Below the pieces are notes generated by a model. That model was not told where the DNA came from. It did no database searches and worked only from the letters and a program-made list of their open reading frames with translations. 54,422 nucleotides of DNA from a virus: IMG/VR virus record IMGVR_UViG_3300021420_000044, positions 1-54,422 of that record. One strand, 5' to 3'. The number at the start of each line of letters is the position of its first letter. Position 1 is the first letter of the stretch. The position numbers and the translations under genes are program-made. Below are positions 16,451 to 54,422 of this stretch, one piece after another.

Positions 16451-16459
16451 ACGCCCTCC

Positions 16460-17176: not shown

Positions 17177-17194
17177 TTTCGCGAAGATGCGAAA
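17177..17194 (-). other. Short inverted repeat after the HTH gene
   Basis: TTTCGC and GCGAAA flank a six-base loop, two bases past the stop of the HTH gene. There is no following T-tract, so it could be an mRNA processing or attenuation hairpin or an operator. The gap 17126-17195 holds nothing else visible. Confidence 0.3.
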
Positions 17195-17195
17195 G

Positions 17196-19412: not shown

Positions 19413-19519
19413 TACTGCCGCTTCCGATTGCGCATGTAGCGGCTCAGCACCTTGCCCTTGCCCGACTTGCCGCTAGGCATCTTCCCCTTGTGGGAGAAGT
19501 TCTTCCTTGGATTTCTCAT
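19412..19519 (-). CDS. Basic mini-protein, 35 residues
   Basis: Starts MRNPRKNFSHKGK and ends YMRNRKRQ, with 15 Lys or Arg and no acidic residue. It starts inside the end of the 180-residue gene in another frame (47-base overlap). GGAG about nine bases before the ATG is a fair ribosome site. Its stop overlaps the next start (TAATG). Confidence 0.5.
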   Translation of the reverse strand: MRNPRKNFSHKGKMPSGKSGKGKVLSRYMRNRKRQ

Positions 19520-20015
19520 TTGTTGGCTCCGCGTTCAACCATTGTGAGAAGGCATCGGCCATCGTCATCTTGCCTTCGTCCCCGCCCTCTTTCAGATGCG
19601 ATTGCAACTCTTTCACTCGCTCATCGAGTTCCTTCGCAGTATAGATGCCGCCATCGACTAGCGTGCGCTGATGTTTTCTGAGTTCCAAAAGAAAGTAGCG
19701 GTAGGACTTTGAGGCAGATTCTTCGTCGTAGATTCGGGCAAACTCGTTGCCGATTTTCTCGTACAGCGTAAGCGCTTTGTTGCGGACGCTCAGCGCCTTT
19801 CGGTTCTGAACGGATACAGCCCGGACTCCACTCTCTGTTTGCGCTCCGTCTCCGTTCTCTGCTTTTTCTGACGCTGTTCCCGCTCCTGCTCCATCAGGTA
19901 AAGACGTAGGTTGTCTTCGGTCGATACTCGGGCTGGCGGGATTTCCTGTGGCTCCTCGGTTGGCGTACTCAACGGCGGCTGCGACTTTCGCGGAGAAGTT
20001 TTCGGAGCTGCCCAT
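19473..20015 (-). CDS. Hypothetical protein, start uncertain
   Basis: 180 residues if the ATG at 20015 is used. The C-terminal half (from about residue 75) is a convincing helical protein with RYFLLELRKHQRTLV and KELDERVKELQSHL. The first 70 residues are low complexity and share 226 bases with the end of the 153-residue gene in another frame. No ATG, GTG or TTG was found in this frame just after that gene ends. Either a long overlap or a ribosomal frameshift is needed. Position upstream of portal is where some phages place a small terminase or packaging factor, but no such motif is seen. Confidence 0.5.
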   Translation of the reverse strand: MGSSENFSAKVAAAVEYANRGATGNPASPSIDRRQPTSLPDGAGAGTASEKAENGDGAQTESGVRAVSVQNRKALSVRNKALTLYEKIGNEFARIYDEESASKSYRYFLLELRKHQRTLVDGGIYTAKELDERVKELQSHLKEGGDEGKMTMADAFSQWLNAEPTNEKSKEELLPQGEDA

Positions 20016-20251
20016 GCAGGAGGCTCGCTAACTACATAAAGGTCTGTGGTTCTTGGACCTAAACGTAGCACAACTTCCGTCAGACTGTCATTAGGAAACC
20101 GCGTCAGAACTTGGTCGGTGACCGCGAGAATATCGTTTACCTTAATGCGAATCTCCCCGCCCTGCTTCTTCACAATGGCCGCAAGCAAGTTCAGCAGATA
20201 GCGGTCTGGTGCCATGCCGGCACTCGAAAGGGGGTACGGAAGTTCATTCAT
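19790..20251 (-). CDS. Hypothetical protein, possible packaging factor
   Basis: 153 residues. Residues 15-75 look globular (YLLNLLAAIVKKQGGEIRIK), a Pro-rich linker follows, and residues 110-153 are a charged helix (LYLMEQEREQRQKKQRTETE). It lies just downstream of the terminase block and upstream of portal. It overlaps the next gene by 226 bases, so its relation to that frame should be treated as open. Confidence 0.5.
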   Translation of the reverse strand: MNELPYPLSSAGMAPDRYLLNLLAAIVKKQGGEIRIKVNDILAVTDQVLTRFPNDSLTEVVLRLGPRTTDLYVVSEPPAWAAPKTSPRKSQPPLSTPTEEPQEIPPARVSTEDNLRLYLMEQEREQRQKKQRTETERKQRVESGLYPFRTERR

Positions 20252-20477
20252 TTTCGCACGGGCAATCTAGTCCGACTGCCCAATAATGCGTGCAGCAGAA
20301 ATAGTTTCCAGTAGTATAAAAATGAAATCTTGGCAGTTTCACTGGCACCCCTCGGCCCAGAGAGTCATATACCATCAGAGAGCCTTGCGGAAAGTGAGCG
20401 CACATACCAGCAGTGTTCTGCTTGCCGCAGGAGCAGAGAAGCATTTCGTATTTCCTGCCGTCCGCCGTGCTCACCAT
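20244..20477 (-). CDS. Cysteine-rich protein, 77 residues
   Basis: Contains CSC, a single Cys near residue 26, CC and CPC motifs with His residues (HFPQG, CCTHYW), so a zinc-binding fold is plausible. It is eight bases into the next gene. Function unknown. Confidence 0.5.
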   Translation of the reverse strand: MVSTADGRKYEMLLCSCGKQNTAGMCAHFPQGSLMVYDSLGRGVPVKLPRFHFYTTGNYFCCTHYWAVGLDCPCENE

Positions 20478-20478
20478 G

Positions 20479-20673
20479 CTACGCCGGCTTGTCGATGACA
20501 GCCTTTAACGCGACTTTCAAGTCCGCCGCTTTCTTTGTGGCCGCTGTGGCTACCTGCTGCGCTCCAGCGAGCGTTTGCTGTGCCACGGTTACCGCATGTT
20601 GGGCCTTTTCCAGTTCGTCCAAGGCTATCTGGTAGTTATTGGAAGCATCGCGTAGGTCTTCGCTGTTGCTCAT
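20479..20673 (-). CDS. Small coiled-coil protein, 64 residues
   Basis: One long helix with heptad spacing through residues 10-58 (ALDELEKAQHAVTVAQQTLA). Ala-rich and without cysteine. It overlaps the 82-residue gene by four bases. It may oligomerise; position next to terminase might suggest packaging, without direct evidence. Confidence 0.55.
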   Translation of the reverse strand: MSNSEDLRDASNNYQIALDELEKAQHAVTVAQQTLAGAQQVATAATKKAADLKVALKAVIDKPA

Positions 20674-20918
20674 AGTTTCCCTCCGTGGGGAATATTAACC
20701 GATTCCAGAACAGGCCACACAGAAAATTCGCTGACTAGCATATCGTCGTAGTAAACCACCATAGCTCCGAAGAACCGCCAAGGTTCCCCTCGCCTTTTGT
20801 CTGCCAATATCACGGCCTCCAAAGCGCGGTACACATCAAGTCCGCACCGAATCTGTTTCGGCTCTTGATTGCCATACGAATTGCTCATTTGCACTTCTAT
20901 AATCTCGGCAATGTTCAT
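20670..20918 (-). CDS. Hypothetical protein, 82 residues
   Basis: Starts three bases after the terminase stop. It has a small mixed alpha/beta pattern and no motif. ATGA overlap with the coiled-coil gene indicates a shared operon. Confidence 0.55.
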   Translation of the reverse strand: MNIAEIIEVQMSNSYGNQEPKQIRCGLDVYRALEAVILADKRRGEPWRFFGAMVVYYDDMLVSEFSVWPVLESVNIPHGGKL

Positions 20919-20921
20919 CGC

Positions 20922-23705
20922 TTACACTCCGTCAATTAAGGACTTCTTTTTCGCTTTCTCGTTGTAAATCCGCAGCTTGTTCAGATGATTTGTGCTCGTC
21001 CACCCAAACAAGCCAAACGCATTCGTCTCTGGACTCTCCATCCACTGCACCCCTTGATGATTCTCTTTGTCCTCCGTCAGCTTTTGCGACATGCGGTCTT
21101 CGTGAGAGCCATGCGGATAGTGATGGTCCTGCATTGCGGCCCAACCGAGCAGACCAGCCATCATCAAATCGTCGTGGCCCTTCACTACTGTCCAGCGCCA
21201 ACCCATTTCCATTTTGCACTTGGACATCTGCGTGACTAATTCTTGGTCGTGCGGGAAACATTCTTTCCGCCGTAATGAAGTTCTAAATAATGCGAGAGCG
21301 CGCTGTCGGCTTCGTTCTGTTGTTTCCCATCCGAGAGAAGTACGCGGCTTTTTATCAAAACGGTCGTCGCGGCCAAGCCATAAATATTGCCCGGGATAAT
21401 GCCATCGATCGCGGAGTTCTCGCAGCACAATGTATCCCCATCCTCCGGTGATTTCAACATTGACCATCGCCTTTCCGTACATTCTTCCAATGTAATTAAC
21501 AATACTGCCGAGAATTTCTGGTCCAACGTGAGCCGCATAACTGAACGCTTGGTCACCAGTCTCCGCATTCCAGCCAACCATCGCAGAAAAATCTCCCGAC
21601 TCCAGACCCTTGCTCGCGTCCACGCCCACGTATACATGCTCGCCTTCTTTCGGCCACTCAAATATTTTCAGCGGACCTTCTCTTGCCTCTTCAAATTCCA
21701 GTGACCAATCAGTCGAGAGCGGGACCATACGCATGTGCGTAATCGGTTCTCTTATGTGGTCCTGCGCCATCTTCATTTCCTGGAAGTCGAAGGCTGGATT
21801 TCCGGTGCTAATAAATGCTTCATCTGGCGTGTTGTGAGAGGCGATTCCATTCGCACCGAAGACGTGTTCTTTGTGGTCTATCGAGAGGTCGTACACTGGA
21901 TGGAGGCCAATGTTCGTTACCTGCACCACAGTGTCTTCAAACGTAATTTGCTGGAATCGGCGTGAAAGCGGGACCACTTTACGGTGCCTGTTTTTCTTTC
22001 GTTCGCTCAGGAATCCAATCTGCTCGTTGAACTCCACTGACTCCCGCAGGCGCAGATTAATATTGTTGTCCATGTAGTGATACCCACGGTCATTCACTAC
22101 TGGTCGGCTCGAAATTTTGGCTGTAATACCGAATCCCAGAAGCAGCAATTGGATTTGCTCAAGGAACTCGATGTGTTTAGAAAATAACTTTATTCGGTTG
22201 TCCTTGTAAGCATTGAAGCCATCCGCCTCGAACAGCCCAGACAGAAACTCTTTGACGATGTGCTTCGGAGACTTCCAGATGCAATCTGGCACACAGACCC
22301 TTCTGTGCGGTTTGTCTTTATGATAAATACCGAGTTTCTTCATCAGGTGACGAAAGTAGACACTGCCGACACGGACCTCCGTACACCCTTTGTTTGGTCC
22401 AGTTTGCCTCTGAGTTGAGTTCCCAAATAATTTTCGTTGATATGCCGCGACCCACTCCACCAAATCCACGTCTTGCCCGAAGCACGCAATAGACACGATG
22501 CCATCCGTGTAGCAACCGTCGCCCATGAACACGCCGAGAAAGCGTGCAAAGTCTGGCGTAATTTCTATTTCTGACTTAACATCGCATGGCTCGTTCCACC
22601 TGACAGTCAGTGGCGTATCAGCAAAGCGCGGCGGTAGCAGGCGGAGTTTTTTATTCAGTGTCTTTTCTAGATGTATAAACGTGCCGTCCGCCAATTGCAC
22701 AGGATGATCCAATGTGCCTCGAAGAACTCGGCCTTGCTCAGTTCTTATTTCGCAGCACTCCTTGAAGCCAGTCATCCCGCATGACGTGACTGTACCCAAT
22801 TCGGAAATGTCTCCTGGCACAGCATCGCGTATTTTCACGATTCCACGATTCGTACCAACCAGGGTATCGGCCAAAAGGCACGCGGGATACTCGGCTCTCC
22901 ACGTATAAATTGACCCGCCGCATTTCGTCTCCAACGTCTGACGATGCCACGCAATCTGTCCTTTCGTAACCTTGAACTCGGCACAAAGCCACTTCTCGTA
23001 GTCATCTGCGGGAGCGTCTGGGGCGAGTGAATCTGGGAGAAACGAACCTGGGTCTTCGTACCAGGGAAGAAAAATTGGCATGAAGTCGTTTTGCCCGTCT
23101 ACGGCGGCATTCCAATAATCGTAATAAGCCTCCCCTGGCCCCTCCATCCCATTCGCCGTCGTCTCAATCGCCACAATGTTGTCTGGGTCTTTCGATGAGA
23201 CGGTGTTGAGTAGCGCGATAAACGAATCCGCCCCTGGGTAGAATGCCGCCTCTGTGAGATGAAGTCCGTTGAGCGTCAATCCGCGTCCGCTAATAACAGT
23301 TTTGGCTGTAGCTCTGCGAAGCGTGGACACTCCTCCAGAGTGAGGGAAATAAATCTCACGCTGCGTATGCGGCGGCAATGTGAACGGCAAGCACAACGAA
23401 AACTCTGTTACTTGCGTGAACAGTTCTTTTGCCGTCTCTCCTAGCTGCGCGACAATCATTCCTTTGCAGTTCCGCTTCTGCAACTGCTGCGCCATCAGCA
23501 GAGAGAGCACCCACGTAGACACCCCGAGCCGGCGACTTTTCAGGAACACGGCCCACAGAGGCTTCTTCTGTTCCTGCCGTTGGCGCACCATTCGCATTAT
23601 CTTTTCTTGGGATGGGTTAAAGCGAAACGGTTTTTGCGCGCCGGTATCGCGGTCCTTGATAGTCAGTCGATTACACAAAGCCGCAAAATGGTCGAGGTTC
23701 AGCAT
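20922..23705 (-). CDS. terL: Terminase large subunit with intein
   Basis: 927 codons encode a 577-residue terminase split by a 350-residue intein. The ATPase part has a Walker A-like KSRRLGVST (residues 56-64), a Walker B-like region ending LTEAAF (150-155) and the coupling motif ETTANG (181-186). The intein spans residues 276-625, between YPA and TPDEAF, a conserved terminase motif. The nuclease part follows with YVGVDASKGLESGDFS, whose Asp fits the first metal-binding acidic residue. The enzyme cuts and pumps DNA into the prohead through the portal. Activity should require splicing. The ATG overlaps the stop of the Tat-signal gene (TAATG). Confidence 0.9.
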   Translation of the reverse strand: MLNLDHFAALCNRLTIKDRDTGAQKPFRFNPSQEKIMRMVRQRQEQKKPLWAVFLKSRRLGVSTWVLSLLMAQQLQKRNCKGMIVAQLGETAKELFTQVTEFSLCLPFTLPPHTQREIYFPHSGGVSTLRRATAKTVISGRGLTLNGLHLTEAAFYPGADSFIALLNTVSSKDPDNIVAIETTANGMEGPGEAYYDYWNAAVDGQNDFMPIFLPWYEDPGSFLPDSLAPDAPADDYEKWLCAEFKVTKGQIAWHRQTLETKCGGSIYTWRAEYPACLLADTLVGTNRGIVKIRDAVPGDISELGTVTSCGMTGFKECCEIRTEQGRVLRGTLDHPVQLADGTFIHLEKTLNKKLRLLPPRFADTPLTVRWNEPCDVKSEIEITPDFARFLGVFMGDGCYTDGIVSIACFGQDVDLVEWVAAYQRKLFGNSTQRQTGPNKGCTEVRVGSVYFRHLMKKLGIYHKDKPHRRVCVPDCIWKSPKHIVKEFLSGLFEADGFNAYKDNRIKLFSKHIEFLEQIQLLLLGFGITAKISSRPVVNDRGYHYMDNNINLRLRESVEFNEQIGFLSERKKNRHRKVVPLSRRFQQITFEDTVVQVTNIGLHPVYDLSIDHKEHVFGANGIASHNTPDEAFISTGNPAFDFQEMKMAQDHIREPITHMRMVPLSTDWSLEFEEAREGPLKIFEWPKEGEHVYVGVDASKGLESGDFSAMVGWNAETGDQAFSYAAHVGPEILGSIVNYIGRMYGKAMVNVEITGGWGYIVLRELRDRWHYPGQYLWLGRDDRFDKKPRTSLGWETTERSRQRALALFRTSLRRKECFPHDQELVTQMSKCKMEMGWRWTVVKGHDDLMMAGLLGWAAMQDHHYPHGSHEDRMSQKLTEDKENHQGVQWMESPETNAFGLFGWTSTNHLNKLRIYNEKAKKKSLIDGV
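21831..22880 (-). mobile_element. Intein with LAGLIDADG homing nuclease in TerL
   Basis: Codons 276-625 of the terminase. It starts with Cys (CLLADTLV), has a block B-like GTLDHPV (residues 330-336), two nuclease motifs FLGVFMGDG (389-397) and FLSGLFEADG (487-496), and ends VFGANGIASHN, followed by Thr as the first extein residue. These are all parts needed for splicing and for homing. It sits at a conserved motif of the terminase, as is common for inteins, because loss by imprecise deletion would kill the phage. Confidence 0.9.
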
Positions 23706-23965
23706 TATTCCTTCACTTCGTAAATCCTGATAGCGTCATCCATCGTGTGATTGCTGGAGGTCATCACAGGAATAATTGGAGTGCCGACTGGCAGTGGCCC
23801 TGGAGTGGAAAGAAACGCATCCAAGTCCACACTAGCAGGGTCAATGAAGACGATGTACTTTTTCTTGGCGTCTATCTCGAATGCCTTGCCAACTTCCAGA
23901 CCTTTAGCAATCACAGGAATGCCCGCGAGTGGAGCAAGCGACTTCAGCAGTTCTCTCCGATTCAT
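23705..23965 (-). CDS. Small Tat-signal-like exported protein
   Basis: 86 residues. The start at 23965 is supported by an ATGA overlap with the zinc-ribbon gene; the frame is open 14 codons further up. Residues 2-21 read NRRELLKSLAPLAGIPVIA: a twin-arginine motif (RRxLLK) and a weakly hydrophobic stretch. The rest (VFIDPASVDLDAFLS) is a compact alpha/beta segment. Export of a small phage protein through the Tat route is unusual. The gene directly precedes the terminase. The role is unknown. Confidence 0.6.
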   Translation of the reverse strand: MNRRELLKSLAPLAGIPVIAKGLEVGKAFEIDAKKKYIVFIDPASVDLDAFLSTPGPLPVGTPIIPVMTSSNHTMDDAIRIYEVKE

Positions 23966-35427: not shown

Positions 35428-35600
35428 TTTCGCGCGTCGTTGAATTCATCTGCCCTGGCAAGCTGCGCCTCACGCCAGTCGTCCATTGCAAGTTGGAATA
35501 CGGCACGCTGCTGGTCCTCGGGCAATTCGTAGAACGTGACGCCGAACTTCTGGCCGGCTATGGCTTCGGCCCTAACCATCATTTGCCAGCGGTCTGTCAT
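35424..35600 (-). CDS. Small helical protein, 58 residues
   Basis: Starts MTDRWQMMVRAEAIAGQKFG and is helical with mixed charge. Linked by ATGA overlaps to the exported protein upstream and to the membrane mini-protein downstream. Confidence 0.55.
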   Translation of the reverse strand: MTDRWQMMVRAEAIAGQKFGVTFYELPEDQQRAVFQLAMDDWREAQLARADEFNDARK

Positions 35601-36067
35601 TTTGGCTCCTGCGGCGGTTTCGCGTCTACATGGTCAGGGGTAGAGCAACTGTAGCCCTGCCAATTCGAGTCCCATGTCCCTGGCTTGCCGTCGAAGCATT
35701 TCGTAGGCTTGTCGCCGCACATCTCTTTTTGATTGGCGTCCTGCGGTCCAGGATTAGGGCACCATTTGTAATCGCGATAGTCCGCTTTCGTTGCGATGTG
35801 GGGACGGTCGCAGCTTGGCCTCCCTAGCTCAGTCTCGTAGACATAGCCGTATTCAATGCCCATCCGCCGTCTGCCTGCAATCTCTATCTTGCCTTCATCG
35901 CATTGATAGATTTCAGATGTGTCAAACAGGTGCGGCACGTTTCCAGAGCCTCCGACAAAGGTGCAATGATGGAACGTGTGGTTAATCGGCTCGTTTGAGA
36001 ACGGAACTGCTGTCTGACTCGCCGCACTCCCAATCAGCAACATTACCGCTAATAGGCACTTCGTCAT
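35597..36067 (-). CDS. Exported Cys-containing protein, 156 residues
   Basis: Residues 1-17 are a Sec-like signal (MTKCLLAVMLLIGSAAS) followed by Gln. The mature part has seven cysteines spread over 120 residues and many Pro, Gly and Asp, as in secreted disulfide-bonded proteins. Not recognised. Such a protein in an early operon might block receptors or protect the cell from other phages. Confidence 0.6.
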   Translation of the reverse strand: MTKCLLAVMLLIGSAASQTAVPFSNEPINHTFHHCTFVGGSGNVPHLFDTSEIYQCDEGKIEIAGRRRMGIEYGYVYETELGRPSCDRPHIATKADYRDYKWCPNPGPQDANQKEMCGDKPTKCFDGKPGTWDSNWQGYSCSTPDHVDAKPPQEPK

Positions 36068-37609: not shown

Positions 37610-37930
37610 CTATGGAGTCCAGTTCGGATCGCGCCATTGCGGATTGATGCGTTGCAAGCGCTTCCAATCGACGTAGCAGCGAGCTAATTCCTTTTTGGTC
37701 TGTGCGTCAGGGCCAGTGGTTAGTGTGGAACCGGGCAGACAATCATCGACACAAGTCGGAAGAAACTGAAATTGAGTGCCTGAGCCGCGCGAAAATCTGG
37801 GCATACCGCGTCGCGAGAGAGTCACGCACACACCGTTTACATTCTTGATGCACTTGCAGGCTTGAGTATCCTGTCCGTAACTCCGACCAACGCCGGCTAC
37901 CAACAGCAACACAATGCAAAGTCTTTTCAT
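37610..37930 (-). CDS. Exported Cys protein, 106 residues
   Basis: From the ATG at 37930, AAGGGG eight bases before it. Residues 1-19 are a Sec-like signal (MKRLCIVLLLVAGVGRSYG) followed by Gln. The mature part has six cysteines (CKC, C, C, C, C) and basic residues. It looks like a secreted disulfide-bonded protein. Not recognised. Confidence 0.6.
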   Translation of the reverse strand: MKRLCIVLLLVAGVGRSYGQDTQACKCIKNVNGVCVTLSRRGMPRFSRGSGTQFQFLPTCVDDCLPGSTLTTGPDAQTKKELARCYVDWKRLQRINPQWRDPNWTP

Positions 37931-41532: not shown

Positions 41533-41695
41533 TGTTTGCTCTCTCGTACTTTATGTACGTGAACCAACTTATTGGCCAGACTTCATACAGGCCGAAGCGG
41601 AAAATAACGTTGAGCCAGAGCCACATTGGCACCCATTTACGCTTGCTGCCAACCTTCACCAAATCCTCGAAGTCAAAGAATTCAGTGTGCTTCAT
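41513..41695 (-). CDS. Small membrane protein, 60 residues
   Basis: One Trp/Leu/Phe-rich hydrophobic segment (WVPMWLWLNVIFRFGL) preceded by acidic and basic residues. Coupled by ATGA to the Tat-signal gene. Could be a spanin or accessory holin. Confidence 0.5.
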   Translation of the reverse strand: MKHTEFFDFEDLVKVGSKRKWVPMWLWLNVIFRFGLYEVWPISWFTYIKYERANNATEAR

Positions 41696-42306
41696 CGAAT
41701 TGCCAACTGTGGATAGCCGTTCTGTTCAAGGAGCGCATTGAATCGCTTCTTAAACTGCGCCGGCGTGAGTTTCAAAGTCGGAACTGTAAGCCGTTTCGGA
41801 TTCTCAGCAGCGGCTTTCAATGCTGGCGTAGGAGCAGGAGCCGGTAGCTGCGTAGCGAAGCCCTGTAGAGTTGAGATGATGATTCCTAGCAAGCCCTGGA
41901 CCAGCGCAGCCAGCTTGCCATCTGGAATTTGCAAGTCGCTCCAGAATGTCTGAATGTTGGCTTCGAGCGATGCCAGTGCGGCAGAAATTTTGCCTAGCAG
42001 CGTTGTCTTGTCCCCAGGATTGTTGTTGTAGTTCGTCACTGCTACTTGCAAGTCAGCGAATCCTGCTTTCACCAGCGCAATGATGGCATCGAGCGCAGGG
42101 GCGCTTCCTAGCGGCAATACTCCAGCGCCAGTAAGCAAGTCCACCACGGCCTGAAATGCTTGCAGACCCACGCCAACGTACTTCAGAATCGCGGCGAACA
42201 CTGTGCCGAACGTACACGCTGTTTCCAGCACTGTGCTGCCAAGAGTTGAAGCTAGGGCTACGGCTCCCAAAGATAACTGCGCAAAACTGCGACGTGATGT
42301 GTTCAT
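41692..42306 (-). CDS. Tat-signal exported helical protein, 204 residues
   Basis: From the ATG at 42306, which overlaps the endolysin stop by four bases; an ATG nine codons earlier is less likely. Residues 1-30 carry SRRSFAQLSLGAVALAST, a twin-arginine (SRRSF) signal, ending near ETA. The mature part is Ala/Leu-rich helical (about 45-190), with Pro linkers. Position in the lysis block suggests a periplasmic lysis or envelope protein; no known family. Confidence 0.65.
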   Translation of the reverse strand: MNTSRRSFAQLSLGAVALASTLGSTVLETACTFGTVFAAILKYVGVGLQAFQAVVDLLTGAGVLPLGSAPALDAIIALVKAGFADLQVAVTNYNNNPGDKTTLLGKISAALASLEANIQTFWSDLQIPDGKLAALVQGLLGIIISTLQGFATQLPAPAPTPALKAAAENPKRLTVPTLKLTPAQFKKRFNALLEQNGYPQLAIR

Positions 42307-44557: not shown

Positions 44558-47500
44558 CTACTGCAAAGCCGCAACGTATAAATCCGCTCTCGCATGTCCT
44601 GCCGAATCGCTTCCCTCGCTCCCCAGATGGGTGCTCACCCAGGCAAACATGTCTCCCCGAGGCGAGACAATTCCAATACTCTCCTGCGCTCCAAAGCCGA
44701 AGTCTCCACCATTGGTGCAGTGCGCGTGTGAAGCGTCTCCACAACTGAACGTGTGCGCGATTCGGGCCACTTTATTTGTGGCTGGCACTCCGTTTGTAAA
44801 CCACACCATAATCTCGTTGTTGTACGGATTCGGGTTGTACACGCCGCCATTTGCCACCGTGGTTAGGTCGGAGGCGCATATCCAAGGCAGGGTATCGTCC
44901 ATCGTTCCGTTGTTGTTGTGCGGCCATGAACAGTGCTGGTCTTGGATGGCGAGAGCGTTCATGTACTTGGTAAACGAATTTAAGTTCGATAGCGGCCTGA
45001 TGGATGGCCCACCTAGAGGAGCGTTACCGGAAGCCGGAGTAAGCAGTTTGGCAATGCCTACCGATTCGTGCGCTCCGCATTGCAGACTGCCAGCGTTGTT
45101 ATTCGAGCACCACTTCGAGGTGCCCGCGTTCATGTTCACGAAGGCTGGCCCCGATGAGGCTATGCCAGCGCATCCCCCTATCGTCCAGACTCCTGCTTTG
45201 GCAATGTCAATGTAGGGATTCGAGGAATCGGCTCCTGCGAGAACGTCATGGATTCCGGCTCCATGTGCGCCGTCAGAGCCGTAACATTCCGTCGCGTCTG
45301 ATGGGAAAGTTCCCGCAGCGGGAGTGGAAGGACCGCAGCCTGAAGGGCAGTAAGCCCAATATTGTCCGGTGTGCGCATTGACGGTACGGCATCCACGAGT
45401 CCGGCTCCACTGAAATACCCAATCAGCGTCCCCCTGGGCGGTTGGCCCTAGTCCAATGGTGAAAGTGTCATCATCATCGGTGACGTTCAAGACGGAATGC
45501 CATGTCGCAGAGAATGGAACAGCATTCCAGCCAGGGCAAACGCCGGCTCCCATTAAATCGACTAGTTGCGACTCGGTGAACGCGGTATCGCTGGTCAGAT
45601 GCCCCTTCCAGATTTGGCTACCGGACTTGAAGCGGTAGAAATCCGTATCTGCCAGCCACGAAGTGTGAAAAGCTCCACCAGGCACCACATTCAAAGGCAA
45701 GCCCGTGTTGACGACTTGCGCCTTGCCGCCAGATAGGGCTATGTGCGCTAAATTCAGTGAGCCGCCAGCGATTGAGTACCAGAGGTACGTTCCGTTGGGA
45801 TAACTCCACTGATGGTCGTTGTCGCCGCCTGAAAGCGTAAAGTTGCCTACGGACGCCCCTCCGGCGATGGTTGTTCCATCTGAGGCGCGGCAGATTTGCT
45901 CCGTTCCCGGCGTATGCCCTGGAATGGTCAAATCTTCTTTGCAGGAATTTAAGCAGTCTCCAATGCACTTGTCAGGGAATGCGTAGTTCGATGCGCTGGC
46001 CGTGTTGACGCTTCCTGTGATATGCAGTTGGGTTGCCGAGTCGCACGAGCCAATCGTGAAAAGGATGGCGATTATCAGAATCTTATCCCCGACTACACAG
46101 TTTCCGCCGTTAAACTGGTCGCCAGCAGCCCAATTCACCGTCTGTGGAAACACGGTGTTCACTTGCCCACTCGGAGGCCGCGAGATGAACAAGGGCGCAA
46201 GCGTGCCTATCATGGGTAACGTGCTGTAGGAAGCTCCCAGATACAGTGGAGGGCCAAAACTGGCTCCAGCCTGAGAGCCGATGGCGAATGAACCAGAAAC
46301 GCAGTTCGTGTCGCAGCCTATGGCAGAAAAAGGTAAGACAAACTCATACGCTCCGCGGTCCCATGTTCCGTCTGCGCCTCGCGTATTACCTAATGGGTCA
46401 ATATCGTTTGCAGCTAATGTTGCATGTGTATTGGTGCCGTCGCTTAAAACGTGTCCGCTCGTGATTTCGCCTGCCAATAAGTAACTGTGCAGTGCCTGAT
46501 TAACGAATGGATCGCTTACTGAAGTCCAGACATGATCGTGAGTGTTGGGAGAAGACGGCGCGTTGCTGCCTAGATTAAGAAAAGTGTTGTAATCTTCGGT
46601 AGTTACTGCGCTGCTATCCCAAGTGCCAGCCGCTGCGGTGGTGTTATAAGCCAAATTATTGTAGGCCAGCCCTGTGCTGGTTACGCACCCGACACATCTC
46701 CAGCCCCAATGATTCGTATGGCTGGTCGTTCCGTCGCCTATGATGGTATTGTTAAGTATGAGGATGTTCGAGCAGCTTTGACCGTTATTGCCGCATGAGA
46801 AATTGCCATCCTGAATGCCGGTTCTGACGTATGGATTTCCGGGAGATAGTCCGAATATGTTGCCGTAAATATAAACGTTGGAAGTCGTTTCCACTGCTCC
46901 GCCGCGATACAAGACCACGAGATCGCCAGTTCCTTCAGTGTCAAGAAACCAGTTGTTAGCGAACGTGATGTTGTTGCTTCCGTCGTCCGCCCAACTCTCC
47001 GCGTGGAATCCATTAACATCGGTCGTCTCACGTTCAAAAGCGGTTCCACTTATGGTCGCCGTGTCCCACTGCGCGCTTATGATTCCGTTGGTAAAGTCGT
47101 GAACATAGCTGTCCGTGATAAATATGTTCGTACAGCCGGAACCCGGACTGCCAATCGTTCCGATGCACCGAACAAAGGCATCATCCGCCGCCGAGGCCAC
47201 AACTCCATTCACGGTACCGCTGCTGGATACGCTGGCGTTGGGGGTGCAGGATACGGGGTAAGTAAAATGCCGCGGGTCGGCGTTCGTGGCAATTTGTACG
47301 GCGGCGATATTGAAATTTCCGGATGAGACAGAAGCGACAGCGATCCACTGGCCGTTATAGATGTAATTATGAGCGCGCGTGGTCGCTAGCACTACTGTTG
47401 CGGTCGCACCACCAGCATCACATGCAATCGAGGAAATATTTGCCGTGTTTAGAGCCGATGCCTCGTTGTCCAGTTCTGGTCCGTAGTATTCAACGTTCTT

Positions 47501-48025
47501 GAATGTGAAGTTGCTATGTCCAGCGGTGATGTCTACAGCGGCAGTCTGATTCGACGGGTAACGGTTGTCGAACATCATGTTATAACCTGAATCCTTGCTA
47601 GCGCGACCATTACCGTCAAACACCCAGTAACTGCTGGTAATGACAAACATATAACCAAAAGCGTTGAAGGTGCAGGCACCGCACTGCCACCGGACTTGGT
47701 TTGAGGGAGTCGCAGCTAGTGGGCTAGTCCAATTTGTCGCTGTGCAGTGATCGGTCCCGGTGGCGGCCCGGAAGGTAATAGTTAACGTTCCGCTGACCGC
47801 TTGTGACAATGCCCAACCTTGTGAACTGCTCGCGGTATGGGTATACAGCCCCCCCGCCATGTAATACACGTCGCCTCTCGTCAGCGTTCCGGCAAGCTGA
47901 GCAGGCCCCATTGGACTTGCCCAGTCAGCCGCCACAGCATTGGAGGCTGAACCTGTCGTTGTGACGACGTGACAGGTCGCAAATACCGATGACGTTAACA
48001 TTAGAACGCAAAAGACAAGCCTCAC
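44558..48025 (-). CDS. Exported beta-helix protein, 1155 residues
   Basis: GTG start at 48025. Residues 1-16 (MRLVFCVLMLTSSVFA) are a Sec-like signal before a Thr/Cys-rich start. Residues about 40-540 have Asn/Gly/Ser-rich rungs and WVFDGNGR, FADNW and YIYGNIFG-like repeats typical of right-handed beta-helices in polysaccharide lyases and adhesins. The C-terminal half has Trp/Gly/Asn-rich repeats and resembles a lectin or propeller. Many cysteines (over 30) suggest disulfides. It lies between fibres and holin. Likely a surface-polysaccharide-directed protein. Confidence 0.65.
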   Translation of the reverse strand: MRLVFCVLMLTSSVFATCHVVTTTGSASNAVAADWASPMGPAQLAGTLTRGDVYYMAGGLYTHTASSSQGWALSQAVSGTLTITFRAATGTDHCTATNWTSPLAATPSNQVRWQCGACTFNAFGYMFVITSSYWVFDGNGRASKDSGYNMMFDNRYPSNQTAAVDITAGHSNFTFKNVEYYGPELDNEASALNTANISSIACDAGGATATVVLATTRAHNYIYNGQWIAVASVSSGNFNIAAVQIATNADPRHFTYPVSCTPNASVSSSGTVNGVVASAADDAFVRCIGTIGSPGSGCTNIFITDSYVHDFTNGIISAQWDTATISGTAFERETTDVNGFHAESWADDGSNNITFANNWFLDTEGTGDLVVLYRGGAVETTSNVYIYGNIFGLSPGNPYVRTGIQDGNFSCGNNGQSCSNILILNNTIIGDGTTSHTNHWGWRCVGCVTSTGLAYNNLAYNTTAAAGTWDSSAVTTEDYNTFLNLGSNAPSSPNTHDHVWTSVSDPFVNQALHSYLLAGEITSGHVLSDGTNTHATLAANDIDPLGNTRGADGTWDRGAYEFVLPFSAIGCDTNCVSGSFAIGSQAGASFGPPLYLGASYSTLPMIGTLAPLFISRPPSGQVNTVFPQTVNWAAGDQFNGGNCVVGDKILIIAILFTIGSCDSATQLHITGSVNTASASNYAFPDKCIGDCLNSCKEDLTIPGHTPGTEQICRASDGTTIAGGASVGNFTLSGGDNDHQWSYPNGTYLWYSIAGGSLNLAHIALSGGKAQVVNTGLPLNVVPGGAFHTSWLADTDFYRFKSGSQIWKGHLTSDTAFTESQLVDLMGAGVCPGWNAVPFSATWHSVLNVTDDDDTFTIGLGPTAQGDADWVFQWSRTRGCRTVNAHTGQYWAYCPSGCGPSTPAAGTFPSDATECYGSDGAHGAGIHDVLAGADSSNPYIDIAKAGVWTIGGCAGIASSGPAFVNMNAGTSKWCSNNNAGSLQCGAHESVGIAKLLTPASGNAPLGGPSIRPLSNLNSFTKYMNALAIQDQHCSWPHNNNGTMDDTLPWICASDLTTVANGGVYNPNPYNNEIMVWFTNGVPATNKVARIAHTFSCGDASHAHCTNGGDFGFGAQESIGIVSPRGDMFAWVSTHLGSEGSDSAGHARADLYVAALQ

Positions 48026-48026
48026 G

Positions 48027-49883
48027 TTAACTAGCTCCAGTGATTTTCACATCACAGCGAGGGATGATTGACCCCGTAGTAGCAGATTGAATTTCCTGTA
48101 TAGCGATCTTGTGGCCTGATGTTACAGCCACGGAAAGCCCGGTGACACTGCATGTTTGCGCCGTTCCAGTGATCGTGCAGGTTGCCGTGGTGGTAGTTGC
48201 ATCGTCGTAGTAGGCAGTAAACGCAATTGTTTGCCCACTTGCAGGCGGAGATATAGAAGCACAATACATTTCGCTAATCGTGCCAGTGAACGGGAGGAGT
48301 ATGTCGGCGGCGGCCACCGTGGCCGCCGCCGTAAAAGAAAAGTAATGGGTGGCAGCTTGAGCTGTGCTTACGGGTGACCATAGCGAAAGAAGAGCGGTCC
48401 CCGCGACTGGAGCGCTATACGCCCCCGTTCCATTCAGAAAATGAGTGGCTACATTATCAAGTTTTGGCGTGAATCCGTGAGCAGATGTAGAAACATTGCC
48501 AGTAGTATTATCAGCGAAAACGTGCATGGCTTCGGTTACTTGTGCAGCACCAATAGTCAATGCCAAAGAACCTGCGGAGTTGGTAACGTTTCCGGTATGG
48601 GCTGGTTCGCGCCCTGCTGCGAGAGTGCCTGTCGCGTCTGCTCCACTTAAATCCACCGCGCTGCTGGTCACGGCTTGCGTTGATCCGGCGAAATGAGCGA
48701 TACCCACACCTGGAGAAGTAGCTGTAACGATATTGCTGGGATTAAGAGCAAACTGCGTGAAAGTGACCGCATCAGTTCCTATCGTCGCTACCGACGACGT
48801 TTGTAGCCACTGCGTTTGCGCGTTTACCGTGCCGTTCACAACCGGGATTGCTCCCGTATTGTTCATGTCCGAAGGCTGGTCATAATCCAGAGCACGAGTC
48901 AGTATCCAAGCCACACCCACGCCAGATACCTGAGTAACGAGGTACACGCCGTTTTGGAACGTACTAGCCTGATTCTTGACCAAGATGCGGTCGTTCAATA
49001 CCGGAGTGTAGCCGTCCACTACCAATGACGTGTTTGTCGTCGCTGTTGTGAGTGTCGCGCCAATTCCTGCCACTCCATTGCTATAAGTAGGAGAATTTGG
49101 CAGTACAGCAGCAGAAGTAGCCTGCACAGCCACTGCTGGATTGACCGCTGCAATGGCATTGGTGACTGCTGTTGCCACGAACGCTGTGGAGGCTGCGTTG
49201 GTGCTACTATCTCCCGCTGATACTGTAGAGACTTTCGTAGCCGTGGCTCCAGTTAAATCCTGCGTCCCAGTCGTAATCGTATTGGAAGCATTAGTCACAA
49301 CACAGGTCGCGCAAGCAATTGTTCCTGTGCCTGTGATTGTGCCGCCAGTGATGGGAGCAGTGGTTGCTATCGAGGTGACTGTTCCAGAACCACCCGCCGC
49401 GTCCGTAGGTGACAGCATCTGCCAAACACCAGCAGCAGATTCAAATGTCATTAATGTCCACTTGTTAGCCAGCATATCGTTAGCTACCAAATTGGCCGAG
49501 CCGCCTTGCTTTTTGATTGTCCCTGCCGTCGCCCCATTGACGGCTAGCGTTGATGAACCAGTATTCGCCACATCAGACTCAAACAGTACGGTATCACCGT
49601 CTGCTGGCGTGAAACTTGGCGACGTAGTGCAGGTATAAGCTGTCCCAGAAGCAGAAGCGGCCTCGCAAATAAGCGGTAAGGCGACAGCATGGGCAGTGTA
49701 GGTAAAGCCAAGATTTCCAGTCGTTGTCACCGGAGAACCTGTAATCGTAAAGCCGGTTGGCGCTGTCAAACCTACGCTGGTTACGGTCCCAGACCCTCCT
49801 CCACCAACGGGAGGATTCGTAACCTGAGCAACAGCCAAAGAACAACAGAGTAGTAACCACGTTAGCGCTAGTTTATTCATCAT
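48027..49883 (-). CDS. Exported fibre-like repeat protein, 618 residues
   Basis: From the ATG at 49883 (or 49880); it overlaps the stop of the collagen-like gene. Residues 1-19 are a Sec-like signal ending LAVA before Gln. Thereafter beta repeats of tail-fibre type: GTVTSVGLTAPTGFTITGSP and GTVTSIATTAPITGGTITGT are near copies. Gly/Thr/Ser/Ala-rich to the end. Likely a trimeric fibre shaft or tip. Directly follows the collagen-like protein. Confidence 0.65.
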   Translation of the reverse strand: MMNKLALTWLLLCCSLAVAQVTNPPVGGGGSGTVTSVGLTAPTGFTITGSPVTTTGNLGFTYTAHAVALPLICEAASASGTAYTCTTSPSFTPADGDTVLFESDVANTGSSTLAVNGATAGTIKKQGGSANLVANDMLANKWTLMTFESAAGVWQMLSPTDAAGGSGTVTSIATTAPITGGTITGTGTIACATCVVTNASNTITTGTQDLTGATATKVSTVSAGDSSTNAASTAFVATAVTNAIAAVNPAVAVQATSAAVLPNSPTYSNGVAGIGATLTTATTNTSLVVDGYTPVLNDRILVKNQASTFQNGVYLVTQVSGVGVAWILTRALDYDQPSDMNNTGAIPVVNGTVNAQTQWLQTSSVATIGTDAVTFTQFALNPSNIVTATSPGVGIAHFAGSTQAVTSSAVDLSGADATGTLAAGREPAHTGNVTNSAGSLALTIGAAQVTEAMHVFADNTTGNVSTSAHGFTPKLDNVATHFLNGTGAYSAPVAGTALLSLWSPVSTAQAATHYFSFTAAATVAAADILLPFTGTISEMYCASISPPASGQTIAFTAYYDDATTTTATCTITGTAQTCSVTGLSVAVTSGHKIAIQEIQSATTGSIIPRCDVKITGAS

Positions 49884-50269
49884 TTGCACCCGTTAAACGC
49901 CGCTCCCGTAGCGGAAATCACCACAGACGTGCAGGTAAAGGACGTTGGCATGGTGCCAGCAGGGCCGACCGGGCCAACGTCGCCTCTCGGGCCAATCGGG
50001 CCAGCAGGTCCAACGCTCCCGCCAAGCGCAGTGTATGCCGCGCCATCAACGCTAACCTTGACCCCAGACGACGTAAAGCAGACCGCAACGATTCCCACGG
50101 CCGGCGTCTGGCACGGACTACCCGTAGTCGTGCTCATGCCTATTGAGGTGCCGTTAGGGATTGTGCCCTGCGCTGCCACGCGGTCAGGCATGAACAGGCC
50201 CAACGCTACCCCTACGACCAGCGAGCCTCCGAGCACCACTCCTACGCCCATTGTCCTCACAAGTCGCAT
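49880..50269 (-). CDS. Exported collagen-like protein, 129 residues
   Basis: Residues 1-35 contain a long hydrophobic signal (MRLVRTMGVGVVLGGSLVVG) ending RVAAQ. Residues about 90-112 have four to five Gly-X-Y repeats (GPAGPIGPRGDVGPVGPAG), as in collagen-like phage fibres. AGGAGGGACC precedes the ATG. Probably trimerises, forming a hinge or base for the fibre downstream. Confidence 0.65.
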   Translation of the reverse strand: MRLVRTMGVGVVLGGSLVVGVALGLFMPDRVAAQGTIPNGTSIGMSTTTGSPCQTPAVGIVAVCFTSSGVKVSVDGAAYTALGGSVGPAGPIGPRGDVGPVGPAGTMPTSFTCTSVVISATGAAFNGCK

Positions 50270-50277
50270 GGTCCCTC

Positions 50278-51555
50278 CTATTGCGTTTCAAGCAAAATCG
50301 GCTGTATCCCTACCGGAATCCCTGGACAGATCGGGGAGCAGGCTGGAGTCGGAGTCCTTGTTCCGTCCAATTTCCTGATGAACTTCCATTTAGCATCCTG
50401 CGCGTACAGTCCAGTCGTACACTTCCCTCCCGAGCACGTCTTGCTCGTATCCCACACAGCCTCAGACTGATATCCGCCAGCCTTCGTGAAATAGCAATCC
50501 CATACTGTGCCATTTTTACCACACACGTTGGTCGGAGTCGCCCCAACCAGCCATATTGGCATCTGCTTGTACGCCACGCCCGAAGGTAGTAGTTTCCCGC
50601 CTGCTACCAGCCCTCCCCAATCGCCCTGAGACGTGTACCAGAACGCCTTTTTCACTCCCAAGCTGGCCTGAATGAGATACGCTCTCGCTACCCAACTCGC
50701 CTGCAAATCAGGGTCGTTGAAGCAGGTAAAACCCGATTGCCCCCATGAGAATTCGGTGTCCCACAGAGGCTTGAGAGGTGGATAAGTAATCATCAGGGCC
50801 GTCAGATTCGCTACATGTACTCGTACGTCCTCTGGAATCGCTGAAACGCCGCATTTCTGAGGGTAAACGTTGGTATACCCATGATACGCAACGTAATCCA
50901 CTGAACCGAGTCCGCCTGCCGCCGCCAAACCTTGCCACCATTTCATCTGATAGCCGAATTGCGCTTGATTCTCCGGCGTCCCGCATAGCACCCCTGGAGC
51001 TAGCTTATGAACGATGTCGCAGGTGTCCTTCGTCATACGGGCTAACTGCGCTGGAGTGCCGTTCCAATGACCCAACCAGCCCGGCTCATTCCATGTACTG
51101 AAAGCGGATACGTGAGGACGGCCATTGATGCGGGACTCGCTCCGGTTGACTATCGCCGTAACGAAGTCTTTCCAGTGCTGGTCGGTGGTTGCAATGTCCG
51201 AAGGCGGGGAGCAGGCATACTGCGTTTTCCCCATCTTGCAATTCGGGTCAGCCCTGAGAGCGGCCCACTGCGGCGTCTCGCTCAACGTCATCAGAACGTC
51301 AGTCACGCCCAAGACTTTGGCATCCTCCAAGAGTTTGTCGAACGTGGTCCAGTTGTACGTTCCGTTAGCCGTGTTGGTGTCTTTCCACGGAGTACCCACG
51401 TCCCACTGACGTAGTGCTCCTGTAGGTGATGACATCAAAAGGTTGCTGGTCCCAATCCCATTCTGGTCAGCGGAGACGAAGCTAGGCGTAATCTGCCCAG
51501 AGGCCATGATAGATAAGCAGAAACTAACTGCCAAAAGTCGGAATAGATTTTGCAT
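50278..51555 (-). CDS. Exported clan GH-A glycoside hydrolase
   Basis: 425 residues. Residues 1-20 are a signal (MQNLFRLLAVSFCLSIMASG) before Gln. A TIM-barrel with WNEP at 155-158 (acid/base Glu157), VAYHGY near 222-227 and LWDTEFS at 264-270 (nucleophile Glu268) fits clan A retaining hydrolases; closest in style to GH39/GH5 or PslG-like enzymes. Such enzymes cut beta-linked polysaccharides. Placed among fibres, it could cut host capsule or biofilm, or serve as auxiliary carbon enzyme. No carbohydrate-binding module is seen. Confidence 0.8.
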   Translation of the reverse strand: MQNLFRLLAVSFCLSIMASGQITPSFVSADQNGIGTSNLLMSSPTGALRQWDVGTPWKDTNTANGTYNWTTFDKLLEDAKVLGVTDVLMTLSETPQWAALRADPNCKMGKTQYACSPPSDIATTDQHWKDFVTAIVNRSESRINGRPHVSAFSTWNEPGWLGHWNGTPAQLARMTKDTCDIVHKLAPGVLCGTPENQAQFGYQMKWWQGLAAAGGLGSVDYVAYHGYTNVYPQKCGVSAIPEDVRVHVANLTALMITYPPLKPLWDTEFSWGQSGFTCFNDPDLQASWVARAYLIQASLGVKKAFWYTSQGDWGGLVAGGKLLPSGVAYKQMPIWLVGATPTNVCGKNGTVWDCYFTKAGGYQSEAVWDTSKTCSGGKCTTGLYAQDAKWKFIRKLDGTRTPTPACSPICPGIPVGIQPILLETQ

Positions 51556-51556
51556 G

Positions 51557-54422
51557 CTAGTTCCTTCCTACGCACCCATAATCAATCACGTCACTCGCGC
51601 CGGGAGTAGTGAACGTCACTGAAGCGACTCCAGTGTAGGTGACTTTGATTCCGCCTGCGGTGGTTTCATCCGACGCCCAACACACAGGATGGGAGGCGTA
51701 CGTTCCCAAGAATGCGTAGGTCACCGTGCTTCCAGAAGCGGTCAACGTACCACCCATGTCTGTGTTAGCAGCTAAACCTGTGCCGATTCCACCAGGACTC
51801 TCTAGCCCGCCAGGAACGTAGAACTCCAAGCCCCTACTGAGAGACGCAGAGCCAAGCACAACATTGAATTTGTCGTCCTGCATGAGATTGAAATTGCCCG
51901 ATGTAGACGCCACGGAGTTGAACGTCTGTCCGCCATCTGCCGCCGCTCCCTCTCGCACTCCGCAAGCTAACGTGGACGGTCCAGAGACTCCCAAGAAAAC
52001 ACCATTCCTGACCAGACTGTAGGTGCCAACCTTTATGGCGCAATCTGTGCTCTGCTCGCCGTGGAACGACACTACGACTGGATTGTTCACGCCATCAATC
52101 ACCAGTCCAGCAGTCATGCGGCCTGGATTAGCACTGCCCTGCGCTGTGTTCGATAGCAGGCGATGAGGCCCGTCCGCCTGTGGCCCGTTGTTGTAGCCCG
52201 TATTCCCGCCACCGCTTGCCACCACTGCCGTAACTACGTTCGTCTGCGAGATGCCATTAATCGTTCGTGAGCCGACCGTGACTGTACAGGTAGCTCCTGA
52301 TACCAGAGCACCGCCGTAGGTCGATGGCGCTCCGTAAATCGTGCAAGTCGGAGGAGTGACGTTGCATCCCCCTGAGCCTGCCGTATTGCCGTTGCCATCG
52401 TTGCCGACTCCAATTGAAGTGATAGCCCCTGTGCTCACGCCCACCACGTATGCGGTCGGTTGCACGGCACACGACCCTTGCGTCATCACTACCGTATCGC
52501 TGGCCCCTTCAATGACAATGCCGTTTACCGGAGCAGACGCTACAGGGTCAACCGTGGCCTTCGTATTGATGTGCAAATCTTCGGCTGAGAAGTGAGTCGG
52601 CCCAGAGGCAGAGGTTGGAGCTTCTGTCCGGTCCCAGAACACTGCTGCCGCATTCGCTGGCACCGTAGCGTTGATGGAGCCAATATCACCGAACGCAATT
52701 CCAGTGTACTTGCAGCCTTCTTGGCAGTTCATGTTGTAGATACCGAAGGCGTTGTTGTTGCCGCCGAGCGAGACTTTGATTTCCGGCCCAAGAATGTGAC
52801 GGAAAGAATCAGTCTGCCAGCCTACCCCGAACGACCCGCCACTCTGCGCTCCATCACAAATCAAGCAAGCATAAGTTCCAGCCGCGTAAGGACCGTGCTG
52901 GATGGTAAACGTCAGTTGGTTGGTAGCATTCGGGAAACGTGGGACTGTGACTCCCCCCACACTGCAATTCGTAGTCACCCAAGTAGGCGCAGCAGGGCCG
53001 CACGCCTGAATCAACGTGCCAGTAATATTCGCTGGCCCTGAAGCAGCCCCTGACCCGTACATCTGAAACGCTACCTGCGGAGTTGACCACGGCACGCTCG
53101 ACACAATCTGTGCCGCTCCAAGCATCAACGTCAACGGCTTATTGCATCCCGCAAACGGGTCAGAATTGCACGCCTGCGGTCCAGAGAAGCCACGAGCATC
53201 AATGGTTCCGCCAGAGGAAGGCAGTTTGGCCGTACAAGCATTGTTAATCTTGGCGCACATATCAGCGCCCGTAGCCCCTAGAGCATCCACGAAGCCGCTG
53301 GAGCCGAATCCGGTACATAGCCCTACGCACGTTGCCCCGCCATTCAGTGTTACTGCACCACCAAACTGATTTTTGGCCGTTCCTGCCTCAAATATCCCCC
53401 AAGGGTCGGCATTCGATGCGCCAATCGTCTGGTCAGCTATGTACATCCCGTAATGATGGCTGACCGTGCCTAACGAGGCGTTGGGCGAGGCCGCATAGAA
53501 ATCGGCGTCATTTGTCGTCGTACATCCCGAACAAGTGTTGTTTAGGGTTGCTCCGTAGACTGCCGCATTCGTTGTTACGGTATGGTCCTTAGTCTGGGAT
53601 AGGAAATTGCCTCCAGTCTGAAGCGTGACCGCAGAAGTGCTGGCCGAGCCTCCAAAGCCAGAAATGACTTCTACTCCATTCATTCCACTGACAGTTGCAT
53701 TGATATTGTTCTGGGCAGTGAACAGCCCTCCATCAAGTGTCCCAATCGCGGTTGCTGTCGAGCCAAGGCTTGAGACTTTGCCGTTTACTCCGACCATTCG
53801 ATTGGTGGTGTTCGTTGTGGTCTGGTCCTGAAAGATAAACAGACTCCCGTAGCAATCCTGTGCCGAACAGTCAGTCTGCGTGGAAATCGCTTCGAGCGTG
53901 GCGTGATTCGCATTGTCTGTGCCTCCACCTGATGCTCCGTTAAACAGGCCAAACCCGAACTCAAGCGAGTACGTATTGTCATCTTGGAAACGACGCCCAC
54001 TCGCACCTGTATCCGTAAATGGCGAGTTCCCCAAAACTGTTGCGCTCGTCCATTCTGGAAGCAGGGTAGCCGTACCGCTGCCTGTGATGCCTGTCCCTCC
54101 CGCTTCAGCTAAATCCTTGCATACCCCGCTCGCGCCGTGACACTGAGCCAGAAAGCCGTCATTCTGGATGCACAGCCCTGTGTAGCCTGAAACAAGGCCG
54201 CCAGGAAGGAACGTAGAGGTAAACGTCGCTACCGTGCAGGCAGGAATCGGAATCTGTGATGCCATCTGGTACGGCCCGTTAAACTGCTGGAAGCCGGTAA
54301 TGAGTTGGTTCTGGACCGTTTCGGTATGCGTCCCTGAATTGAACGAGTACGTGCTGTCCGCTCCAAACGCTCCAAGATTCCTAAACTGCACTTCTGTAGT
54401 TGAGCCAGCAGGCGAGCCACTG
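51557..54422 (-). CDS. Exported tail fibre, main part (joins base 847)
   Basis: C-terminal portion of the 1190-residue fibre. The GTG at 54391 is internal: the frame is open to the window end and, through the repeat, to TTG at 847. Gly/Thr/Asn/Ser-rich throughout. The first 250 residues after the junction have repeated LGS, ATAIG and GFGGSA-like strands; the second half is beta-helix-like with many Cys. The C-terminus (GASDVIDYGCVGRN) ends two bases before the glycoside hydrolase ATG. Putative receptor-binding protein. Confidence 0.7.
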   Translation of the reverse strand, partial: SGSPAGSTTEVQFRNLGAFGADSTYSFNSGTHTETVQNQLITGFQQFNGPYQMASQIPIPACTVATFTSTFLPGGLVSGYTGLCIQNDGFLAQCHGASGVCKDLAEAGGTGITGSGTATLLPEWTSATVLGNSPFTDTGASGRRFQDDNTYSLEFGFGLFNGASGGGTDNANHATLEAISTQTDCSAQDCYGSLFIFQDQTTTNTTNRMVGVNGKVSSLGSTATAIGTLDGGLFTAQNNINATVSGMNGVEVISGFGGSASTSAVTLQTGGNFLSQTKDHTVTTNAAVYGATLNNTCSGCTTTNDADFYAASPNASLGTVSHHYGMYIADQTIGASNADPWGIFEAGTAKNQFGGAVTLNGGATCVGLCTGFGSSGFVDALGATGADMCAKINNACTAKLPSSGGTIDARGFSGPQACNSDPFAGCNKPLTLMLGAAQIVSSVPWSTPQVAFQMYGSGAASGPANITGTLIQACGPAAPTWVTTNCSVGGVTVPRFPNATNQLTFTIQHGPYAAGTYACLICDGAQSGGSFGVGWQTDSFRHILGPEIKVSLGGNNNAFGIYNMNCQEGCKYTGIAFGDIGSINATVPANAAAVFWDRTEAPTSASGPTHFSAEDLHINTKATVDPVASAPVNGIVIEGASDTVVMTQGSCAVQPTAYVVGVSTGAITSIGVGNDGNGNTAGSGGCNVTPPTCTIYGAPSTYGGALVSGATCTVTVGSRTINGISQTNVVTAVVASGGGNTGYNNGPQADGPHRLLSNTAQGSANPGRMTAGLVIDGVNNPVVVSFHGEQSTDCAIKVGTYSLVRNGVFLGVSGPSTLACGVREGAAADGGQTFNSVASTSGNFNLMQDDKFNVVLGSASLSRGLEFYVPGGLESPGGIGTGLAANTDMGGTLTASGSTVTYAFLGTYASHPVCWASDETTAGGIKVTYTGVASVTFTTPGASDVIDYGCVGRN
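54283..54422. repeat. Terminal direct repeat, right copy
   Basis: Matches bases 1-140 with two differences (54290 and 54413). See left copy. The reading frame of the fibre gene is kept in both. Confidence 0.9.

Follow-up and report, generated by a model that had tools for sequence, protein, structure and literature searches.

Predicted secretion signals on the tail fibres of a family of uncultured podovirus-like phages

Introduction

Tail fibres set the host range of a phage, and the usual view is that they are made in the cytoplasm and joined to the particle there. Fibres that are exported are not, to our knowledge, how phage tails are made, and searches of an open-access library, which leaves most subscription journals outside it, found no published description of exported tail fibres in tailed phages. 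An earlier note on the uncultured virus analysed here claimed ten proteins with export signals, eight of them Sec-type and two Tat-type, and counted every fibre gene among them. This locus raises the questions of whether the signals are present, whether relatives keep them, and whether the proteins that carry them are parts of the virion.

Results

A near-complete podovirus-like genome

The window, meaning the whole stretch of DNA analysed, is an IMG/VR virus record of 54,422 bases (G000). Its two ends overlap by 140 bp, of which 138/140 positions are identical (two mismatches), so that the genome, about 54.3 kb long, is either circular or terminally redundant, and a fibre of 1190 residues encoded across the window ends (fibre 1) is real. 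The window is a near-complete podovirus-like genome with overlapping ends. Its gene content is of the P22/Mx8 podovirus type, with PHROG and Pfam matches to a portal, a major head protein, a terminase, and a virion structural protein. This gene-based assignment draws on a P22-like portal, whose match to the P22 portal is weak and below the cut-off, and on capsid homology and gene order shared with Myxococcus phage Mx8. The capsid is 26% identical to that of Mx8, and both genomes present the same run of terminase, portal, capsid, tail genes, an acetyltransferase-type gene, and structural genes. Unlike the window, Mx8 has a signal on 0/12 of the virion-region genes tested, and those of a Bradyrhizobium relative likewise have none. 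Searches of cultured phages with the large tail protein, the portal, and the fibre N-terminal module described below returned no match, and no tRNA genes were found in the window.

Other features of the core region are recorded here in their own right. The terminase large subunit (20922-23705; 927 aa) is interrupted by an intein with a LAGLIDADG domain; its homologue in G001 has 577 aa, is 83% identical, and lacks the intein, while the terminases of G009 (947 aa) and G024 (939 aa) have sufficient length for one. A small acetyltransferase-like gene (8400-8798) lies within the virion gene block and is kept across the family, and Mx8 has an acyltransferase gene at the same place. Between the capsid and tail genes, a 165-aa open reading frame (ORF; 13505-14002) looks homing endonuclease-like by eye (LAAFVDGEGC). 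Small ORFs that by eye resemble the putative adaptor gene of Table 1 precede the signal-less fibres of G008 and G009.

Sec and Tat signals in the window

Signals were scored with a home-made measure that combines n-region charge, h-region hydrophobicity, and a cleavage matrix over positions -13 to -1. The matrix is of the von Heijne type, and the +1 residue was excluded so that Gln at this position could not bias the score. In a calibration on two regions of E. coli K-12, 15/15 known exported proteins scored at least 11.9 and all non-membrane proteins scored 7 or less, the sole false positives being polytopic inner-membrane proteins.

All eight of the claimed Sec-type signals are present in the window, with scores of 8.9 to 17.6 (Table 1). 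By the home-made scorer, these N termini have the positively charged n-region, the h-region, and the small residues at -3 and -1 that characterize Sec/signal peptidase I substrates. The Gln that the earlier note had placed directly after the cleavage site in seven of the eight was borne out, with Thr at this position in 44558-48025. Two scores are borderline (37610-37930, 9.2; 48027-49883, 8.9), yet both proteins have ordinary cleavage sites (...GRSYG^Q and ...CSLAVA^Q). The weakest Sec case is 49880-50269, in which charged residues separate the hydrophobic stretch from VAA^Q and which possibly has an anchor. An apparent signal on the terminase arises from a downstream start and was left out of the count, and 7927-8433, an internal virion-type protein with a hydrophobic N terminus (score, 13.7), was not taken as exported.

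Only one of the two claimed Tat signals stands. The family of 41692-42306 keeps a twin-Arg motif in 6/6 true homologues, the window included (SRRSF, DRRGF, NRRTF, NRRTF, ARRRF, and DRRPF), and all six have a Cys at a lipobox-like position after it. This conserved twin-Arg-x-Phe-type motif precedes a hydrophobic stretch, as expected of a Tat substrate. Homologues occur in at least five relatives, and the family possibly has a lysis or exclusion role. The second candidate, 23705-23965, is weak: it has no match in 24 relatives and falls short of a conserved twin-Arg motif with a full signal.

Table 1. Signal-bearing and neighbouring features of the window
Positions	Strand	Feature	Evidence
1-847	-	Fibre 1, 5' part (whole protein 1190 aa with 51557-54282): signal, Gln+1, N-terminal module, fibre body	Score 17.6; AAWS^Q
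443-784	-	Fibre 1 mature N-terminal module, 114 aa, 4 Cys	AlphaFold2 pLDDT 95, pTM 0.86; Foldseek
844-4263	-	Fibre 2 (1139 aa): signal LTAFC^Q and module, then a body that is tailspike-like, with a DYGAVQNGTTDDAPAVVRAL motif seen by eye	Score 17.1
4264-4542	-	Small gene immediately upstream of the fibre genes; adaptor role speculative	
4552-23705	-	Packaging, portal, capsid, tail, and ejection-type genes: signal-less core	PHROG/Pfam matches; 0/153 family homologues score as signal
23705-23965	-	Claimed second Tat protein (NRRELLK), weak	Score 5.7
35597-36067	-	Small Cys-rich protein, predicted exported, SAAS^Q	Score 16.4
37610-37930	-	Small Cys-rich protein, predicted exported, RSYG^Q	Score 9.2
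41692-42306	-	Putative Tat-exported lipoprotein adjoining endolysin gene, conserved	49% identical homologue in G001
44558-48025	-	Fibre 5 (1155 aa), signal SVFA^T, Cys-rich	Score 15.4; exported homologue in G016
48027-49883	-	Fibre 4 (618 aa), signal SLAVA^Q	Score 8.9; PHROG tail fiber 5.6e-13
49880-50269	-	Small protein with collagen repeats; long signal or anchor at the N terminus, VAA^Q	Score 11.0
50278-51555	-	Glycoside-hydrolase-like protein, predicted exported, signal IMASG^Q, without module	Score 11.1
51557-54282	-	Fibre 1, 3' part	

Fibre 1 starts at a TTG (847) that shares bases with the TGA of the gene upstream, and its module is ~52% identical to those of the G001 fibres and 50% identical to that of G003. 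A PDB search with fibre 2 returned no match. The collagen part of 49880-50269 has a PHROG tail fiber match, and the homologue in G001 also has a hydrophobic N terminus. The neighbouring 50278-51555 has a weak Pfam match to GH42 and a glycoside hydrolase catalytic core, below the cut-off; its relatives include glycosyl hydrolases on plasmids and a xylanase of a Caulobacter phage, and it is homologous to part of a 1309-aa exported protein of G001. A fold predicted from this one sequence reached a pLDDT of 35 and was discarded. The two small Cys-rich proteins (35597-36067 and 37610-37930) have no homologue among the relatives.

Conservation in uncultured relatives

A capsid search of IMG/VR returned 122 relatives. 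From such searches, 24 long genomes were taken (22 via the capsid protein and 2 via the module), and the fibre N-terminal module is present in 23/24 of them. Counts were then made over 25 genomes, namely the window, G001, G003, and 22 of the 24 fetched genomes, leaving out the other two. Here the conservation that the earlier note had marked for a homologue survey was found: a signal is scored on 26/31 fibres with the ~115-residue module and on 6/6 fibre homologues (32/37 in total), in contrast to 0/153 packaging and core virion proteins (Fisher test, 2e-31). One of the five module fibres without a signal score, that of G023, falls just below the threshold at 7.97, and its ...DITKA^Q is visibly a signal. 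Exported genes of at least 250 aa number a median of 3 per genome (range, 0 to 5). Wrong choices of start codon were considered as a source of the signals and ruled out, given that 26/31 module fibres show the signals and that cysteines accompany them. Judged from their predicted N termini, the window phage, a soil virus, and many relatives equip nearly all of the tail fibres that bind the host with a conventional secretion signal. The earlier note knew of no described phage with so many signals in its tail block; on this evidence, predicted export signals on fibres are no oddity of a single phage and are common in a large uncultured family.

Fibre bodies are exchanged while the signal and module are retained. 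For instance, the match between fibre 2 and G001 is confined to the first 113 aa, which are 53% identical, and the body differs. The fibre 2 body is in turn 50% identical over 881 aa to a protein of contig L031 (3706-7992), which otherwise has no match to the window, a likeness that reads as a recent fibre exchange between phages. The signal-module unit also occurs on contigs without a match to the window core genes, and thus it may travel between virus types. Five such contigs of ~27-35 kb (L034, L035, L036, L042, and L044) carry signal-module fibres; at least four of them have in common an ORF bearing a Walker-like GQTQRAGKTTALEA-type motif, and five ORFs of L036 gave no Pfam match. Possibly, these contigs represent a different virus type with shared fibres.

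A cultured parallel

Tunturi 1 is a plaque-forming podovirus of Tunturiibacter psychrotolerans, and the text of the paper describing it mentions neither signal peptides nor fibres (PMC11924767). Its genome (PP887698) has signals on gp12, gp13, gp14 (annotated tail spike), gp16, and gp17, and the four long signal-bearing proteins contain 1.5-2.7% Cys, compared with 0-0.8% in its other virion proteins. Like the window, this cultured acidobacterial podovirus therefore has a block, previously unreported, of five signal-bearing fibre-region genes of which the four long ones are Cys-rich, so that the trait extends beyond the uncultured family. Unlike the window, it lacks the module, and its tested genes have no sequence similarity to window genes. 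Fibre-like genes of Tunturi 3 and 4 have no signals, which rules out fibre export as a universal trait of acidobacterial phages.

Cleavage profile and cysteines

We compiled 81 non-redundant modules, 75 behind a signal and 6 without one. Part of the set came from a search whose profile contained signal sequences, and the 75:6 ratio accordingly over-represents signals; the capsid-fetched set is less biased. The six signal-less modules represent about four independent lineages. At -1, the residue is Ala, Gly, Ser, or Cys in 73/73 tabulated modules, -3 is mostly Ala, and the +1 column is Gln in 73/75 signal-bearing modules.

Cysteines follow the signals. Signal-bearing modules contain 2 (45 modules), 4 (24), 0 (4), 3 (1), or 5 (1) Cys residues; hence 69/75 modules with a signal have 2 or 4 Cys, versus zero Cys in 6/6 without one (Fisher test, 6e-7). 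Even with the enrichment of this set for signals and the small number of signal-less lineages, the trend points clearly one way. The same tendency is visible at the level of whole proteins. Long exported proteins average 2.1% Cys with an even total in 57/64, and core virion proteins have 0.56% Cys with an even total in 37/75 (parity, Fisher test, 5e-7). In the AlphaFold2 model of a window module, Cys80 closes one strand and Cys87 opens the next, as in a bridged hairpin. The signals look used. Predicted export is well supported by three lines of evidence: the signals are conserved, their cleavage sites follow the textbook pattern, and cysteines occur together with them.

The N-terminal module and the virion

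A Foldseek search with the module model retrieved viral tail-fibre N-terminal regions, with TM scores up to 0.71 (tail fiber protein of Podoviridae sp. ctIlO27), and a lambda-like tail fibre N-terminal domain with a TM score of 0.48; structural matches in the PDB were weaker, with E above 0.001. By sequence, the top PDB match was a virion tail fibre chain (9e7m chain Ta), in the same register but weak (E 0.16). Like the lambda-like N terminus and 9e7m chain Ta, the module is a small beta-sandwich at the fibre N terminus. It differs from known tail-fibre N-terminal domains in the cleavable-looking signal ahead of it and, usually, in one or two Cys pairs.

Gene positions bear on the same question. 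In G005, G006, G007, and L023, module genes with a signal are flanked by capsid genes on one side and tail genes on the other; in G015, the flanking genes are TerL and portal. Such positions within the virion gene block are expected of tail fibres and tailspikes. Signal-less homologues of the module exist within the same family, and no other receptor-binding candidate was seen in the window. The earlier note had offered two readings, either fibres that pass through the membrane or secreted enzymes and adhesins outside the virion. For the module fibres, the fold match, the signal-less homologues, the gene positions, and the lack of another receptor-binding candidate give the virion-part reading, with its membrane-crossing fibres, the better support. 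The secreted-enzyme reading may fit the glycosidase-like 50278-51555, which has no module and may be a free enzyme.

Host

Gln at +1 is a rule for exported proteins of Bacteroidetes (PMC5837995), in which it directly follows the signal peptidase I site as it does in the window. The Q-rule was described for Bacteroidetes, and here the pattern appears in phage proteins and on an acidobacterial plasmid. In Granulicella tundricola plasmid pACIX901 (L205-L209), 15/28 signals have Gln at +1 (22/28 allowing for cut-site uncertainty), versus 0/10 in E. coli, and the rule thus seems to hold in Acidobacteriota too. We consider Acidobacteriota to be probably the hosts of the window phage and its relatives, by analogy with these plasmid signals and with Tunturi 1, which has the trait in an acidobacterial host. 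A Bacteroidota host, with the same biology and with Gln+1 as an instance of the original rule, concerns the host question only and was judged independently of the alternatives below; it is quite unlikely, given the Granulicella proteins and Tunturi 1, and also because the GC content of 51-64% in most relatives and the Shine-Dalgarno-like sequences that precede several window genes favour Acidobacteriota. Two genome scans for a prophage or host link, one with the module and one with the capsid, gave no relatives.

Discussion

We lean slightly toward a reading in which the tail-block proteins are exported, disulphide-bonded fibres or tailspikes, with at least one enzyme among them, and in which virions acquire these fibres at lysis or later. 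The sequences give good support to the signals, to the cysteine link, and to conservation of the signals, while export and cleavage in the cell, the disulphides, attachment through the module, and the timing of assembly are steps that we infer. On this route, the fibres or tailspikes and at least one enzyme would leave the cytoplasm of the infected cell via Sec signal peptides, and cleavage would expose an N-terminal Gln that is probably cyclised to pyroglutamate. In the periplasm, the exported fibres would fold and form disulphide bonds, the cytoplasm being the site of capsid and tail assembly, and the ~115-residue module would serve as the virion-attachment domain. Because Sec export keeps fibres and cytoplasmic virions apart up to lysis, the route requires that fibres be added afterwards: fibres would meet virions as the envelope breaks, and their addition would be the last assembly step. 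A precedent that makes so late a step plausible is P22, whose tailspikes can bind finished heads in vitro. Counting against the route, some exported proteins (e.g., the glycosidase) have no module, and four signal-bearing modules have no Cys. The broader proposal, that there is a group of lytic-type tailed phages with cytoplasmic heads and tails and with Sec-exported, periplasmic, disulphide-bonded fibres joined only when the cell bursts, seems to us evenly poised between right and wrong.

The main rival holds that the exported proteins are not virion parts at all but secreted depolymerases or adhesins. Their targets would be exopolysaccharide or the surface of infected or neighbouring cells, where they would free progeny or block re-adsorption. 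Export takes proteins away from the assembly site, each phage has several exported genes (the median given above), and a glycosidase-like protein occurs both free-standing and as a homologous region within the longer exported protein of G001, all of which would suit secreted enzymes. We nevertheless judge this explanation unlikely: the module fold matches tail-fibre N-terminal regions and has signal-less homologues, several of the genes sit between capsid and tail genes, and both the window phage and Tunturi 1 would then be left with no recognisable receptor-binding protein. A compromise, in which excess fibres are exported and some end up on virions at lysis while others coat the host or debris against wasteful re-adsorption, fits all the data, including the mixture of exported proteins with and without the module; being more complex, it strikes us as very unlikely.

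Less probable still is the suggestion that the N termini are hydrophobic anchors or trimerisation helices inside the virion, neither exported nor cleaved. It draws on the status of the signals as predictions only, on the anchor-like N terminus of 49880-50269, and on the hydrophobic N terminus of the internal virion-type 7927-8433, with its score of 13.7. Against it stand the strict small residues at -3 and -1, the Gln of the host type at +1, and the presence of Cys pairs only behind a signal.

Returning to the exported-fibre reading, its closest described analogue is pIII of M13, which binds the receptor and is synthesized with a Sec signal sequence (PMC8310372). Filamentous phages such as M13 assemble while passing the envelope, whereas the window phage is a lytic-type, tailed, portal-containing phage.

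If the route is true, assembly of these phages would be completed at lysis, the making of disulphide-rich fibres would be accounted for, and co-infecting phages could share fibres. The combination of a signal, Gln at +1, and paired cysteines may also provide a simple sequence marker with which to recognise, in soil viromes, receptor-binding proteins that escape family databases. Moreover, Tunturi 1 makes the exported-fibre idea testable now in a cultured environmental soil host.
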